Positions 2,392-10,027 of a DNA stretch of 64,000 nt are shown piece by piece. The notes below the pieces were generated by a model. That model had not been told where the DNA came from. It saw nothing but the letters and a program-made list of their open reading frames with translations, and did not search any database. Numbering within the stretch: position 1 is the stretch's first letter; every line of letters starts with the position of its first letter. Made by a program: the position numbers and the translations under genes. Source of the DNA: an uncultured Bacteroidota bacterium (GTDB taxonomy: Bacteria; Bacteroidota; Bacteroidia; Flavobacteriales; Flavobacteriaceae); NCBI GenBank assembly GCA_903913315.1, contig CAIWKX010000028.1, positions 1 to 64,000 on the forward strand. The letters run 5' to 3'.

Positions 2392-4251
2392 ATGGCAGAA
2401 ATAGAACAGTATAACGAAGATAATATTCGCTCATTAGACTGGAAAGAACACATCCGAATGCGTCCTGGAATGTACATCGGAAAGTTGGGTGACGGATCTT
2501 CTCCTGACGATGGAATTTACATTCTTCTTAAAGAAGTAATAGACAACTGCATTGACGAATTTGTTATGGGTGCGGGAAAAGTAATCGAAGTTACTATTAA
2601 AGATAAATTGGTAACTGTTCGCGATTATGGTCGTGGAATCCCCCTAGGAAAAGTGGTTGATGTAGTTTCCAAAATGAATACGGGAGGTAAATACGACTCC
2701 AAAGCCTTTAAAAAATCTGTAGGTTTAAATGGGGTTGGTACCAAAGCAGTTAATGCTTTATCTAATTATTTCCGTGTAGAATCGGTTCGTGATAATCAAC
2801 AAAAAGCCGCAGAATTCTCTGAAGGTAATTTAACTCTAGAAGAAGATGTTATAGAATCTACTAAACGCAAAGGGACCAAAGTAGCGTTTATTGCGGATGA
2901 ATTAATTTTCAAGAACTATAAATACCGTAATGAGTATATTATCAAAATGCTCAAAAATTATTGTTATCTAAATCGTGGATTAACAATATACTATAATGGG
3001 GAGAAATATATTTCAGAATATGGTTTAAAAGATTTATTAGAAGAAACTATTACTGAAGAAGACATGCAATATCCTATCATTCATCTTGAAGGTGATGATA
3101 TTGAAATTGCTTTAACACACAGTAAGTCTCAATATTCGGAAGAATACCATTCGTTTGTGAATGGTCAAAACACTACGCAAGGAGGAACACACTTAAATGC
3201 CTTTCGTGAAGCTATTGTAAAAACCATTAGAGAATATTACAACAAAGGTTTTGAAGCTTCGGATATTCGTAAATCTATTGTTTCGGCTGTTTCTATAAAA
3301 GTGGAAGAACCCGTTTTTGAAAGTCAAACCAAAACCAAATTGGGTTCCAATGATATTGGTCCTAATGGCCCAACGGTTCGGACTTTCATTCATGATTTTA
3401 TTACTACTAAACTAGATAATTTCCTTCATAAAAATCCAGAAGTTTCCGATTTGTTATTGCGTAAGATTCTACAAGCTGAACGCGAACGTAAGGAACTTTC
3501 AGGAATTAGAAAATTAGCGAAAGACAGAGCAAAAAAATCGAGTTTACACAATAAAAAACTGCGCGATTGTCGTGTGCATTTAACCGATGCTAAAAACCCA
3601 AGAAGTCTAGAAAGCACTCTTTTCATTACCGAGGGAGATTCGGCTTCGGGTTCGATTACCAAAAGTCGTGATGTAAATACGCAAGCCGTATTTAGTTTGC
3701 GAGGTAAACCTTTGAATTCTTATGGGATGTCGAAGAAGATTGTCTATGAAAATGAAGAATTCAATTTACTTCAAGCAGCTTTAGACATTGAAGAAAGTAT
3801 AGAAGATTTACGTTACAATAATATTGTGATTGCGACTGATGCCGATGTCGATGGAATGCACATTCGATTATTATTGATTACGTTTTTCCTTCAATTTTTT
3901 CCTGAAATGATTAAAGAAGGGCATTTGTATATTTTGCAAACGCCGTTATTCCGTGTTCGAAATAAAAAAGAAACTATTTATTGCTATTCTGACGACGAGC
4001 GAAAAGATGCCATTGAAAAACTAAAACCTAAACCAGAAATCACGCGATTTAAAGGGTTGGGAGAGATTTCACCAGATGAGTTCAAGAATTTTATTGGAGA
4101 AAGCATTCGTTTAGATCCTGTAATGTTAGATAAAGCCACATCTATAGAAACTTTGTTAGAATTCTACATGGGTAAAAACACACCGGATAGACAAACGTTT
4201 ATTATCAATAATTTGAAAGTGGAATTGGATAAGGAATTGGTGGAGAAGTAA
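2392..4251 (+). CDS. parE: DNA topoisomerase IV subunit B
   Basis: GHKL ATPase start (RMRPGMYIG), [26 protein letters not shown]; 619 aa; parC-like gene downstream. Confidence 0.95.
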
Positions 4252-4286: not shown

Positions 4287-5462
4287 ATGACTACTGAAGA
4301 AAAAGATAGATTAATGCAAGATGATTCAATTCAATTTGATTTATTTGGATTTGACGATAATGAAGTAGAAAAAGAAATTGGTAATGAGGATGTTGAAATA
4401 ATAGAGCCATTCGATCCTCAAAAGATTAATATAAAGATTGTGCCTTTAACGATAGGTCAATTGGTTGATAAATTACAATATGAAGAAGTAAAAATCCCAG
4501 AATATCAGAGAAAATCTGGATTGTGGGATTCAAAAAGAAAAAGTAGATTTATTGAATCACTCATGTTAAGATTACCTATTCCATTATTTTATTTTGATGA
4601 AAGAGAACTCGATATTTGGTGGGTTGTTGATGGTTTACAAAGAGTAACTACTATTAGAGAATTTGTTTTGAATAAAAAATTTAAATTATCAAATCTAGAA
4701 TTTTTGAAAAAATTAAATGGTTTAGGGTGGGATGATTTAGAAAGAAATTATCAAAGAAACATTAATCAATCCCAAATTACAATAAATCTAATCCAAAAAG
4801 ATACCCCTGAGAAAGTTAAGCATAATATTTTTAGAAGGATTAATCAAGGATCAATTGAATTAAGTTCTCAAGAACTTCGTACTGCATTACTCTGGGGATA
4901 TAGAATTGATTTTTTAAAACAATTAGTTAGAGGTAATTCTAAAGAAGCTCAAATTTTTTTAAAGGTTACGGATAATCGTGTTAAAGTGGATAGACAAGAG
5001 GATTTAGATTTTGCAAGCCGTTTTGTAGCATTTTATTTAAAAGGTTATCAAAAGTATGAACCTGATATGGATAATTTTCTCACTGAGGGTACACTTTTAG
5101 TTTCAGAAAGTAAATCTGAACAAGAGAAGATAAAATTTGCTTTTTATCAAGCTCTAGAAGTTGCAGATTCTATTTTTGGGAATGATGCTTTTAGGAGAAG
5201 AACGAGTATGAATGATCCAAATAGAAAACCGATAAACAAACCTTTATTTGAAGCATTATCAGTAGCTTTTGCATTACTTAATAATTCTCAAAAAGAAAAT
5301 CTGATTAAAAATAAGTTTGCCTTTTATGAATCTTTAATACAAAAACAATTAACTGATAAAAGTTTTTTAAATTCGATTTCAACTGGTACAGCGACAAAAG
5401 AAAGTGTTAACAAGAGAAATAAAGAAATAGGTGAGCTAATTAAAAGATTTTGCAATGATTAA
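4287..5462 (+). CDS. DUF262 (GmrSD/ParB-like fold) protein, putative defence component
   Basis: IPEYQRKSGLWDSKRKSRFIESLMLRLPIPLFYF...VVDGLQRVTTI, matching the DUF262 signature (D-G-x-Q-R). Confidence 0.85.
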   Translation: MTTEEKDRLMQDDSIQFDLFGFDDNEVEKEIGNEDVEIIEPFDPQKINIKIVPLTIGQLVDKLQYEEVKIPEYQRKSGLWDSKRKSRFIESLMLRLPIPLFYFDERELDIWWVVDGLQRVTTIREFVLNKKFKLSNLEFLKKLNGLGWDDLERNYQRNINQSQITINLIQKDTPEKVKHNIFRRINQGSIELSSQELRTALLWGYRIDFLKQLVRGNSKEAQIFLKVTDNRVKVDRQEDLDFASRFVAFYLKGYQKYEPDMDNFLTEGTLLVSESKSEQEKIKFAFYQALEVADSIFGNDAFRRRTSMNDPNRKPINKPLFEALSVAFALLNNSQKENLIKNKFAFYESLIQKQLTDKSFLNSISTGTATKESVNKRNKEIGELIKRFCND

Positions 5463-6591
5463 ATATTTAGAAGTTAATAATTTTAAGAGTCACAAGAAAA
5501 CAAAAATTGATTTATCAAATCTTACGGTTTTTTGTGGTAGTAATAGTGTTGGTAAGTCTTCAGTTTTCCAACCCTTATTACTATTGCGAGAAGCCCATTT
5601 AAATAAAACCAATTTTGAGTATTTAGATTTATTATCAAATCCAATAAAAATTGGTACAATTGCAGATGCATTTTTTCAATATTCTGAAAATGATGAAATT
5701 ACATTTCAAATCAAAACAGAAGTAGATGATTATATTTTTTCATTTGAATTAGAAAATAATGATTACACAAAAACATTAATAAACTCAAGAAAGAATAAAT
5801 TTGAGAATGGAGTAAATCCAAAAATTAGTTTATTTAATGAGAATTTTCAATATATAAGCTCAAGTAGAGTTGGTCCTCAAGAATCGTATAAAAAAGATGA
5901 CGTAGTTGTTGAAAAATATAAGCAAATATCACTTATTGAAGGAAAAGCGGAGTTTTGTATTCATTATTTGCATAAAAATCAGTCTCATAGAGTACTGAAA
6001 GAATTGGTAAACATTAATTCATTAGAGGAAAGTCTAATTTATCAAGTAACAAGCTGGGAAAAAGAAGTTAGTAAGGGTGTAAATGTTATAGTTGATGATA
6101 TTGGTAAATTAGGTTTTGAGTTGAAGTATCAATATGATACTCAACTTGGAAATGAAAAAACAAATAAGTTTTCAGCATTAAATGTTGGTTTTGGACTATC
6201 ATATGTTCTCCCAATAATAGTAGCTATACTTTCAGCAAAACCAGATGCTTTATTAATAATTGAAAACCCAGAAGCCCATCTTCATCCAAGTGGAATTTCC
6301 AAACTTACTGAGTTAATTTGTTTGGCTGCTCAAGCAGGAATCCAAATTATTATTGAAACACATTCTGATCACATTATTAATGGAATTCTAGTGCAATCCA
6401 AACTATACGAGGAGACAAAAAAAGGAATTGATAAAAATAATGTTAGTATATATCAATTTGAAAGAGATGAAGATTGTCATTGTTCGGTAGCTACAAAAGT
6501 AGAAGTTAAAGAAGGAGGAAGAATTAGTTTTGCTCCAGAAGGTTTTTTTGACCAAAGTACTATTGATACAGATTTTTTATTTGACTTATAA
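5455..6591 (+). CDS. AAA family ATPase with DUF3696-like C-terminus
   Basis: N-terminal YLEVNNFKSHKKTKIDLSNLTVFCGSNSVGKSS (Walker A), ALLIIENPEAHLHPSG (Walker B), ETHSDHIING, C-terminal APEGFFDQ. Confidence 0.88.
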   Translation: MIKYLEVNNFKSHKKTKIDLSNLTVFCGSNSVGKSSVFQPLLLLREAHLNKTNFEYLDLLSNPIKIGTIADAFFQYSENDEITFQIKTEVDDYIFSFELENNDYTKTLINSRKNKFENGVNPKISLFNENFQYISSSRVGPQESYKKDDVVVEKYKQISLIEGKAEFCIHYLHKNQSHRVLKELVNINSLEESLIYQVTSWEKEVSKGVNVIVDDIGKLGFELKYQYDTQLGNEKTNKFSALNVGFGLSYVLPIIVAILSAKPDALLIIENPEAHLHPSGISKLTELICLAAQAGIQIIIETHSDHIINGILVQSKLYEETKKGIDKNNVSIYQFERDEDCHCSVATKVEVKEGGRISFAPEGFFDQSTIDTDFLFDL

Positions 6592-6593
6592 TA

Positions 6594-7256
6594 ATGGAGC
6601 ATAATTTTGTATTTTATATTGATGATGTTTTTTTTACAGAAGGTTTGACATTAGAAATTTTAAGAGAATTTAAAATTTTATTTGAAGTGCCATTACAATT
6701 AAATATTCCAACAATATATAACAAATCAGCATTTCAAAATGCTATTGTAAATATTGAGAATGATAATTGTAGACCAAGTTATAAAAATAAAATAATTGAT
6801 GTTTTTGGAAAATTCAAAGAAGTTGAAAATTTTATTTATGACGATAATAAAATTAATATTAATCTTTCAAAGATAATTAATGTTGAAGCATTACAATTTA
6901 ATGATGCTAAAGAAATATGGGCTTTCATAAATTCAAAATTACCACAAAGAAATTTCAACCCAGCTTATACTAAACATGGTAGAAGAAAAAATGATGGAAC
7001 ATTGATACCAGCACAAATTGGAGAATCTCAATTATTAACAACTGATATACAATCTCAAAATTTACTTGATTCAGCTATTTTTGATTTAAGAAAAAGAGCA
7101 AGTTTTCATGTAAATTTTGATGAGTTTTATAATAATAAATATATTTTATTTCCTGATGAAAACACAAATGAATATACTTTTCATGCCTTTCATCTTGAAG
7201 AAAAATTATGGAGTCAAAAAGTTCCAAATTCAATAAGAAAATATTTCGGAAGATAA
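6594..7256 (+). CDS. Hypothetical protein, third gene of the DUF262/ATPase cassette
   Basis: 220-aa ORF, 2 nt after the ATPase stop and 1 nt before the parC start; no family recognised. Confidence 0.8.
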   Translation: MEHNFVFYIDDVFFTEGLTLEILREFKILFEVPLQLNIPTIYNKSAFQNAIVNIENDNCRPSYKNKIIDVFGKFKEVENFIYDDNKININLSKIINVEALQFNDAKEIWAFINSKLPQRNFNPAYTKHGRRKNDGTLIPAQIGESQLLTTDIQSQNLLDSAIFDLRKRASFHVNFDEFYNNKYILFPDENTNEYTFHAFHLEEKLWSQKVPNSIRKYFGR

Positions 7257-7257
7257 A

Positions 7258-9972
7258 ATGAAAGACGAAGAAGAAGATAATATTAATGAGGAAGAAACTA
7301 ACGACGAGTTAGGCGATTCAACCAACGACGAAAGTGTAGACGAAGGCTTTGAGGACATAGTTTCTAGAGGCGGAAATCACTTTTATGAAAACGACGAGAA
7401 TCCCGAAGATACAATTACCAAAGTTACAGGAATGTATAAAGATTGGTTTTTGGATTACGCTTCCTATGTAATTCTGGAGCGTGCCGTGCCTGCGATTGAA
7501 GATGGTTTCAAACCCGTGCAACGTCGTATCATGCATTCTTTAAAAGAATTGGATGATGGGCGTTACAATAAAGTAGCTAATGTCGTTGGACATACCATGC
7601 AGTACCACCCTCACGGTGACGCAAGTATTGGTGATGCCATGGTGCAAATAGGTCAAAAGGAATTGTTGATTGACTGTCAAGGAAACTGGGGGAATATCCT
7701 TACCGGAGATAGTGCTGCTGCTTCGAGATATATTGAAGCGCGTTTGTCTAAATTTGCTTTAGAAGTATTGTATTCTCCTAAGATTACTGATTGGGGAATG
7801 TCTTATGATGGGCGCCGTGCTGAACCAAATAATCTTCCTGTTAAGTTTCCATTGCTTTTAGCACAAGGTGCCGAAGGCATTGCCGTTGGACTTTCGACCA
7901 AAGTATTGCCTCACAATTTTAACGAATTGATTGATGCTTCTATAAAAATTCTAAAAGGGAAACCTTTTACCTTATATCCCGATTTTCAAACCGCAGGTAT
8001 TGCTGATATTTCCAATTATAATGATGGATTGCGTGGCGGACGTGTACGTGTTCGTGCTAAAATTGCGCAATTGGACAAACAAACCTTAGTGATTTCCCAA
8101 ATTCCTTTTTCAACCAATACCTCAACTTTGATTGATAGTATTTTGAAGGCGAATGAAAAAGGTAAAATAAAAATCAAGAAGATTGAGGACAATACCGCTG
8201 CCGAAGTAGAGATATTAATTCATCTTTTTCCAGGGGTTTCTCCAGATAAAACAATTGATGCCTTATATGCTTTCACGGCATGCGAAACATCGGTGGCGCC
8301 TTTAGGTTGTGTCATTGAAGACAACAAACCTTTGTTTATTGGGGTTTCGGCGATGCTTAAAATTTCAACCGAAAGAACGGTTCAGTTATTAAAAGCCGAA
8401 CTCGAAATTCAATTGGAAGAACTTAAAAACAAATGGCACTTCTCTACTTTAGAAAAGATATTCATTCGTGAGGAAATGTATATTGATTTCAAATTGTATT
8501 CTGACAGAGAATCGCTTTATGAGTATATGTACAAACGATTTGAGCCTTTTGCAAAATCATTTGTTAGAGCAATTGAAGATGACGATTTACAAAAATTAAC
8601 TCAAATTCCGATGATTCGTATTACTCGTTTTGATTCGGATAAAGCAGATGATTTTATTGCCAAATTGGAAGACGAAATGAAAGAAGTGCAACATCATTTA
8701 GACAACCTAATTGATTTTGCCATCGACTATTTTGCTCGATTGAAAGAGAAATACGGAAAAGGTCGTGAGCGTCAAACGGAATTGCGAAGTTTTGAAAACA
8801 TTGAAGCAACCAAAGTCGTTTTAAGAAATACCAAACTCTATGTAAACAAGGAAGAAGGTTTCTTTGGAACCGGTTTGAAAAAAGACGAATATGTTGCCGA
8901 TTGTTCTGATATCGATGATGTTATTGTTTTTTTACGTGATGGAAAAATGATGATTTCTAAAGTAGATGATAAAAAGTTCGTAGGCAAAGACATCATCCAT
9001 ATTGCCGTATTTGATAAGAATGATAAAAGAACCATTTACAACATGATTTATCGTGATGGTAAAAATGGGTCCACTTTTATAAAACGTTTTAATGTATCAG
9101 GAGTTACGCGTGATAAATTTTACGATTTGACACAAGAAAAAGCAGGCTCACAAGTATCTTACTTTTCTGCTAATCCGAATGGTGAAGCCGAAGTAGTGAC
9201 CATTTTATTGCGTCAAGTAGGAAGTGTTAAGAAACTAAAATGGGATGTCGATTTTACTGACATAGCTATAAAAGGACGTGCATCTCGTGGTAATACGGTT
9301 ACTAAATATCCAATCAAGAAAATCGAATTGAAAGAGAAAGGTATTTCTACTTTGCGTCCGAGAAAAGTTTGGTTTGATGATACGGTACAACGTTTAAACG
9401 TAGATGGAAGAGGCGAATTGTTGGGGGAGTTTAGACCTAACGACCGTTTGCTAATCATCAATCAAGCAGGAAAGTTGAAAACTATTATTCCTGAATTGAC
9501 TACGCACTTTGATGAAGATATGATAGTATTGGAAAAATGGAATCCGAAGAAACCAATATCTACCATTTATTATGACGGTGAAAAAGAGCGCTATTTTGTG
9601 AAACGTTTCTTGATTGAAAACGAAAACAAAGAAGAAACCTTTATTACGGAGCATGAAAAATCACAATTAGAGATTGTTTCTACTGATTGGAGACCCGTTG
9701 CTGAGATTGTTTTTGCCAAAGTAAAAGGCGTTCAAAAAGATAATCAGACGATAGATTTAGAACAATTTATTGCTGTGAAAGGAATAAAAGCCATCGGAAA
9801 TCAATTGACTTCTGACAAATTAAAACAAGTCAATCTTTTGGAATCGTTACCTTATGAAGAACCTGAAGAAGAAACTCCAGAAGAAATGGAAGTAACCGGA
9901 GATGACACTATTTCTGAAGATATTCAAACCGAATTAGATGACGATGGACAAATCACTCTGTCATTAGAATAA
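7258..9972 (+). CDS. parC: DNA topoisomerase IV subunit A
   Basis: DYASYVILERAVPAIEDGFKPVQRRIMHSL, catalytic Tyr region AAASRYIEARLSK. Confidence 0.95.
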   Translation: MKDEEEDNINEEETNDELGDSTNDESVDEGFEDIVSRGGNHFYENDENPEDTITKVTGMYKDWFLDYASYVILERAVPAIEDGFKPVQRRIMHSLKELDDGRYNKVANVVGHTMQYHPHGDASIGDAMVQIGQKELLIDCQGNWGNILTGDSAAASRYIEARLSKFALEVLYSPKITDWGMSYDGRRAEPNNLPVKFPLLLAQGAEGIAVGLSTKVLPHNFNELIDASIKILKGKPFTLYPDFQTAGIADISNYNDGLRGGRVRVRAKIAQLDKQTLVISQIPFSTNTSTLIDSILKANEKGKIKIKKIEDNTAAEVEILIHLFPGVSPDKTIDALYAFTACETSVAPLGCVIEDNKPLFIGVSAMLKISTERTVQLLKAELEIQLEELKNKWHFSTLEKIFIREEMYIDFKLYSDRESLYEYMYKRFEPFAKSFVRAIEDDDLQKLTQIPMIRITRFDSDKADDFIAKLEDEMKEVQHHLDNLIDFAIDYFARLKEKYGKGRERQTELRSFENIEATKVVLRNTKLYVNKEEGFFGTGLKKDEYVADCSDIDDVIVFLRDGKMMISKVDDKKFVGKDIIHIAVFDKNDKRTIYNMIYRDGKNGSTFIKRFNVSGVTRDKFYDLTQEKAGSQVSYFSANPNGEAEVVTILLRQVGSVKKLKWDVDFTDIAIKGRASRGNTVTKYPIKKIELKEKGISTLRPRKVWFDDTVQRLNVDGRGELLGEFRPNDRLLIINQAGKLKTIIPELTTHFDEDMIVLEKWNPKKPISTIYYDGEKERYFVKRFLIENENKEETFITEHEKSQLEIVSTDWRPVAEIVFAKVKGVQKDNQTIDLEQFIAVKGIKAIGNQLTSDKLKQVNLLESLPYEEPEEETPEEMEVTGDDTISEDIQTELDDDGQITLSLE

Positions 9973-9990
9973 AAATAAAGAAATACCATA

Positions 9991-10027
9991 GACCTGCAAG
10001 ACATTATTCTCTTGTAGGTCTTTTTAT
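9991..10027 (+). terminator. Rho-independent terminator after parC
   Basis: GACCTGCAAGA..TCTTGTAGGTC stem followed by TTTTT. Confidence 0.85.

Follow-up and report, generated by a model that had tools for sequence, protein, structure and literature searches.

The three genes at positions 4287-7256 of the window (the whole stretch of 64,000 nucleotides that was analysed) are best explained as a complete Menshen system, nsnA-nsnB-nsnC, which was very probably gained horizontally and now sits as a guest cassette within the topoisomerase IV operon. Menshen has already been catalogued, and the window adds a member with an unusually short NsnC; the insertion site is a more useful result than the system itself. 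The features of the locus are as follows.

2392..4251 (+): parE, topoisomerase IV subunit B, 619 aa; 5' flank, intact, C-terminus shared with the closest relatives
4287..5462 (+): nsnA, DUF262/GmrSD_N protein, 391 aa, with a DGLQR motif (from PADLOC, PF03235 and alignment)
5455..6591 (+): nsnB, ABC/OLD-like ATPase with DUF3696 at the C-terminus, 378 aa (from PADLOC, Pfam and alignment)
6594..7256 (+): nsnC, putative effector, 220 aa, N-terminal half shortened, C-terminal module (about 104-220) conserved
7258..9972 (+): parC, topoisomerase IV subunit A, 904 aa; 3' flank, intact, start shared with relatives
9990..10021 (+): predicted intrinsic terminator with a 12-pair stem after parC, which would close a parE-nsnABC-parC unit (suggestive only)

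Composition of the cassette

As had been claimed in the preliminary description, three tightly packed genes on the plus strand lie exactly between the two topoisomerase IV subunit genes. A spacer of 35 nt separates parE from nsnA, the last 8 nt of nsnA are shared with nsnB, nsnB and nsnC are 2 nt apart and a single nucleotide (7257) is left between nsnC and parC. Both flanking genes matched topoisomerase models: the upstream product was recognised as the B subunit of a type IIA topoisomerase, for which the GyrB/ParE models scored below their cut-offs, and the downstream product exceeds the cut-offs of NF009397 (gyrase/topoisomerase IV subunit A) and NF007209 (topoisomerase IV subunit A). The higher AT content noted earlier was also confirmed, the GC content being 26.7% in the cassette, 34.8% in parE and 36.6% in parC; the lowest value among 180 sampled 2970-nt stretches downstream (from 7300 on) was 27.5%. 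The open reading frames are not chance occurrences, because all three products match curated families.

No terminator was predicted between parE and parC, in a prediction whose overall count is at chance level. Given this and the tight packing, nsnABC would probably be expressed from the parE promoter and co-transcribed with parE and parC. A Bacteroidota promoter motif was not found 5' of nsnA, and the lone TTTG/TAnnTTTG match, at 6580 ahead of nsnC, may be due to chance.

The best match of NsnA is the PADLOC NsnA profile PDLC03877 (E 2.2e-114, residues 25-389), followed by a secondary match to PD-T4-2_A (6.8e-28). The DUF262 signature originally read in this gene is well founded, since Pfam gives GmrSD_N (DUF262; PF03235, 6e-22) and the DGLQR motif (D115-R119) is invariant among 14 aligned homologues. 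NsnB matches the profile PDLC03878 end to end (E 3.2e-97, 345 profile positions), and its Pfam families are PF13304, PF13175 and PF12476 (AAA_21/AAA_15 plus DUF3696). Together with the Walker A motif (G28-S36, including K34) and ENPEAHLHP, both largely invariant in the aligned homologues, these families agree with the SMC/OLD-like AAA ATPase that had been proposed for the second gene.

In sequence comparison, NsnC is the variable component of Menshen. PADLOC has many NsnC profiles, and other loci of the genus match several different ones. The window's protein matches PDLC03909 (2e-61) in two stretches with profile positions 93-134 skipped, and relatives of this type were found in Bacteroidota and in one Nitrospirae MAG. 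At 220 aa, against 260-307 aa in these relatives, it lacks about 42 profile positions that they have, and the missing part falls within the N-terminal half, where conservation is weak. All residues that are invariant in the alignments (H128, L158, A161, D176, E189, H197 and H200) are retained in the C-terminal module. A search for plasmid carriage of NsnC gave no match.

Nothing significant was returned by Pfam for NsnC. The AlphaFold2 models reached a pLDDT of 67 for the full protein and 82 for the C-terminal module, and neither gave a significant Foldseek match against the PDB (best E for the module, 1.8); ParE, BrnT and HigB toxins surfaced only at noise level. The module also showed a weak match to the YxiD toxin domain (E 0.56), which was followed by an hhalign comparison of NsnC with an Ntox50 exemplar and found no support there. 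A nuclease fold was not adopted, as the structure search of the PDB gave no significant match and the Ntox50 lead was unsupported. The conserved residue set nevertheless suggests catalysis, and the module (H128, D176, E189, H197 and H200) resembles an active site of the nuclease or toxin type. Since none of the fold and family comparisons reached significance, 'effector nuclease' is a putative label for NsnC.

The short NsnC may alternatively be non-functional and the cassette a decaying or inactive Menshen remnant in the course of being lost, which we regard as unlikely. Impairment is possible given the length of NsnC and its profile gap, and a GxxExxY guest of the same slot in another genome (L052) is visibly decaying, with an in-frame stop. 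Nevertheless, the three open reading frames in the window are all intact and tightly coupled, the loss in NsnC is confined to its least conserved half, and its invariant residues are kept, as are the motifs of NsnA and NsnB.

Menshen and related systems

Because the PADLOC NsnA, NsnB and NsnC profiles are the top matches for the three genes, nsnABC is assigned as a complete Menshen system. Menshen had been named only tentatively in the preliminary description, with a new type as the other option; the PADLOC run upholds the former, and a new system type was rejected since profiles cover all three proteins. The cassette has the same gene content, order and direction as Menshen, namely a DUF262 protein, an ABC ATPase and a variable third protein. 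The A-B-C genes are adjacent and on one strand in the window, and likewise at L091, L093, L097 and L110-L116. Li et al. reportedly carried out a domain survey on Menshen in 2025.

Several differences from other Menshen loci were observed. Besides the NsnC cut to 220 aa, the site between parE and parC is unusual compared with Menshen elsewhere. The N-terminus of NsnA is short here, whereas some copies in the genus are extended N-terminally by about 200 aa. These additional residues are dissimilar between the two loci L091 and L094 and therefore suggest a variable sensor part. A review ascribes an OLD/TOPRIM-type component to Menshen (PMC10952713), whereas TOPRIM was not detected in NsnB and no TOPRIM family was among the Pfam matches at E 0.1. 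The domain may not be a defining part of Menshen, given that the window's NsnB covers the PADLOC profile, of only 345 positions, over its full length.

Menshen (NsnA-NsnB-NsnC; Millman et al. 2022) is discussed in PMC10952713; phage protection has been reported for other loci, and defence is lost when the DUF262 gene is mutated or deleted (PMC10952713). While Menshen defence is thus established elsewhere, defence activity of the window's own nsnABC is putative.

Assignment to another system that has a DUF262 protein and an ATPase (GmrSD type IV restriction, PD-T4-2 or PDC-M55, for example) is very improbable. NsnA does match PD-T4-2_A and GmrSD_N, and in two relatives (L038 and L089) the parE-parC slot holds PDC-M55, but the NsnA, NsnB and NsnC profiles lead by wide margins for all three proteins. 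GmrSD, BrxU and SspE (DUF262 plus DUF1524) share with NsnA the DUF262 domain and its DGxQR motif; the DUF1524 HNH nuclease domain by which GmrSD is recognised is absent from all three cassette proteins in Pfam, and the ABC ATPase and the effector are separate genes here. PDC-M55 resembles nsnABC in combining a DUF262 protein, a DUF3696 ATPase and a third protein in the parE-parC slot, but its families and order differ, with the ATPase first, then a B protein and then a 553-aa DUF262 protein. OLD, Gabija GajA and PARIS AriA belong to the same broad SMC/ABC ATPase group and are matched secondarily by NsnB, although at much weaker scores, and the TOPRIM nuclease half was not found in NsnB.

The parE-parC junction in the genus and beyond

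The parE-parC junction is a high-turnover insertion hotspot in the genus. It was compared in 76 other genomes of the same genus, presumably Flavobacterium, the name used in the preliminary description, chosen mostly in order of parC similarity and not randomly, and 37 of the resulting 77 junctions, window included, are occupied. Gap sizes in the 76 others are bimodal, 40 being small or empty (4-231 nt) and 36 ranging from 467 to 4261 nt. The guests were clustered by sequence similarity, with family scans on representatives only, and at least seven unrelated types were recognised. They include DUF1016/YhcG PDDEXK nucleases (PADLOC PDC-S02) in 14 junctions; lipoprotein-like genes, labelled by eye, in 10, some of them adjoining a DUF1016 gene; GxxExxY in five; HEPN-MNT pairs in four; a complete PDC-M55 candidate (ATPase, B protein and DUF262 protein) in two, L038 (G112) and L089 (G102); and a UvrD helicase. 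Menshen occurs once, in the window. All 54 guest ORFs of the 36 other occupied junctions lie on the parE/parC strand; the median spacing is 21.5 nt on the parE side, counted from its stop codon, and 35.5 nt on the parC side, counted to its start codon. On the parE tree, at least 30 changes of content and at least 19 changes of occupancy are required.

Adjacent-gene gaps of one cell-wall/division cluster up to ftsZ, taken from 20 genomes of the genus, served as a control; three of 214 gaps measured at least 400 nt and none 1 kb (Fisher p 8e-22). Elsewhere in the family, the junction itself is conserved in 40 further genera, where it never exceeds 639 nt (0/40 at 1 kb or more). In these genera (L137-L176) the parE-parC gap is short or often holds a recurrent predicted membrane protein of about 160 aa.

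Predicted defence or toxin-antitoxin genes are carried by about 21-22 of the 37 occupied junctions (about 60%). The term 'defence hotspot' is only partly right, because the remaining occupied junctions carry no such predicted genes; guests without a known defence link include the lipoproteins and DUF3298.

The proposition that nsnABC serve topoisomerase IV as a housekeeping or regulatory partner would fit their apparent co-transcription and the single nucleotide between nsnC and parC, but it is hardly credible. The comparison across the genus, an approach put forward in the preliminary description, rules out universal conservation of the cassette: nsnABC are missing from the junction in all 76 other sampled genomes, and unrelated genes fill the same slot in some of them. 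Furthermore, of 198 genomes from the genus only 10, counting the window's own, were found to have NsnA, and its other copies never lie between parE and parC. Such rarity largely refutes a housekeeping partnership. An assembly or binning artefact is extremely doubtful, for although the genome is a draft of 295 contigs, the contig runs colinearly past parC into the folate-ligase gene that is also downstream in the nearest relative (G142), neither parE nor parC is disrupted, and the junction holds inserts in 36 of the 76 other genomes.

The junction may represent a new kind of defence-bearing hotspot, to which we would give a little less than even chances: an operon slot free of integrase, att site and tRNA, in which promoterless co-directional cassettes are swapped time and again, and are expressed and kept by way of the essential topoisomerase IV transcript. 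Swapping could perhaps proceed through recombination within parE and parC, the conserved flanks, and insertions would persist because the slot offers steady expression without a promoter of their own. No prior description of a parE-parC hotspot was found in the literature searched, the coverage of which was incomplete. An essential two-gene operon acting as a high-turnover guest slot indicates where new defence systems may be sought in the genus, and suggests that the spread and expression of defence genes need not depend on a surrounding mobile element.

A palindrome, CTGA..TCAG, located ahead of parC was considered as an integration site and rejected. It is present in 15 of the 40 empty and 13 of the 36 occupied junctions and missing in the window; as about one third of empty and occupied junctions alike have it, it does not mark insertion.

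Imperfect inverted repeats (AGCACAAAGT... / ...ACTTTGTGCT) lie on either side of the GxxExxY guests (L015, L041, L051, L052 and L054), an arrangement that resembles small mobile units of a non-autonomous kind. In the control cluster, L127 and L132 have a small gene between inverted repeats, flanked by murD-like and ftsW-like genes, and this gene resembles, by eye only, four-helix-bundle proteins of the 23S intervening-sequence type.

Origin and proposed mode of action

In the proposed mechanism, NsnA, with its ParB-like, NTP-binding DUF262 domain, and NsnB, an SMC/OLD-like ABC ATPase with DUF3696, would form an NTP-driven sensor and switch. Going by the biology of the family, this switch may answer a phage nucleic-acid or modification signal. 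NsnA and NsnB would then license NsnC, the putative effector, to halt the infection.

Arrival of Menshen in the window's genome by horizontal transfer is supported by the relationships of NsnB. Its closest relatives lie outside the genus (58% identity to a Cytophagales MAG), and in the NsnB tree it groups with Arcicella, Cellulophaga sp. BC115SP and the Cytophagales MAG with support of 100/99. A single clade of the genus NsnB proteins was rejected (p-AU 1.3e-5). This grouping with Cytophagales copies and the rejection of a genus clade both argue for transfer.

The preliminary description had regarded the cassette as a mobile or defence module. A horizontally transferred Menshen system agrees with this in part, but integrase, transposase and tRNA are all absent near the cassette, so that 'mobile' can refer to transferred cargo and not to an element. 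Nor is the locus a classical defence island, because the remaining genes of the window look like housekeeping genes.

Menshen is found in varied surroundings elsewhere. Within the genus, it lies inside a type I restriction operon at L092 and L095 (hsdM-hsdS-nsnA-nsnB-nsnC-hsdR, with HsdR at L095 assigned by eye from its similarity to L092), adjoins genes for a C5 methylase and for a ferrochelatase at L091, and has a batA-like gene on one side and a conserved 417-aa ORF on the other at L093 and L097. NsnABC synteny was also observed at seven loci (L110-L116) in other taxa. At one of these, L112 of a Cytophagales MAG, Menshen is located about 3.3 kb 5' of a parC homologue, possibly by coincidence. 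The Menshen regions of L110 and L114, together with their flanks, are nearly identical between 'Cellulophaga sp. BC115SP' and Flectobacillus longus, and the former record may therefore be misnamed.
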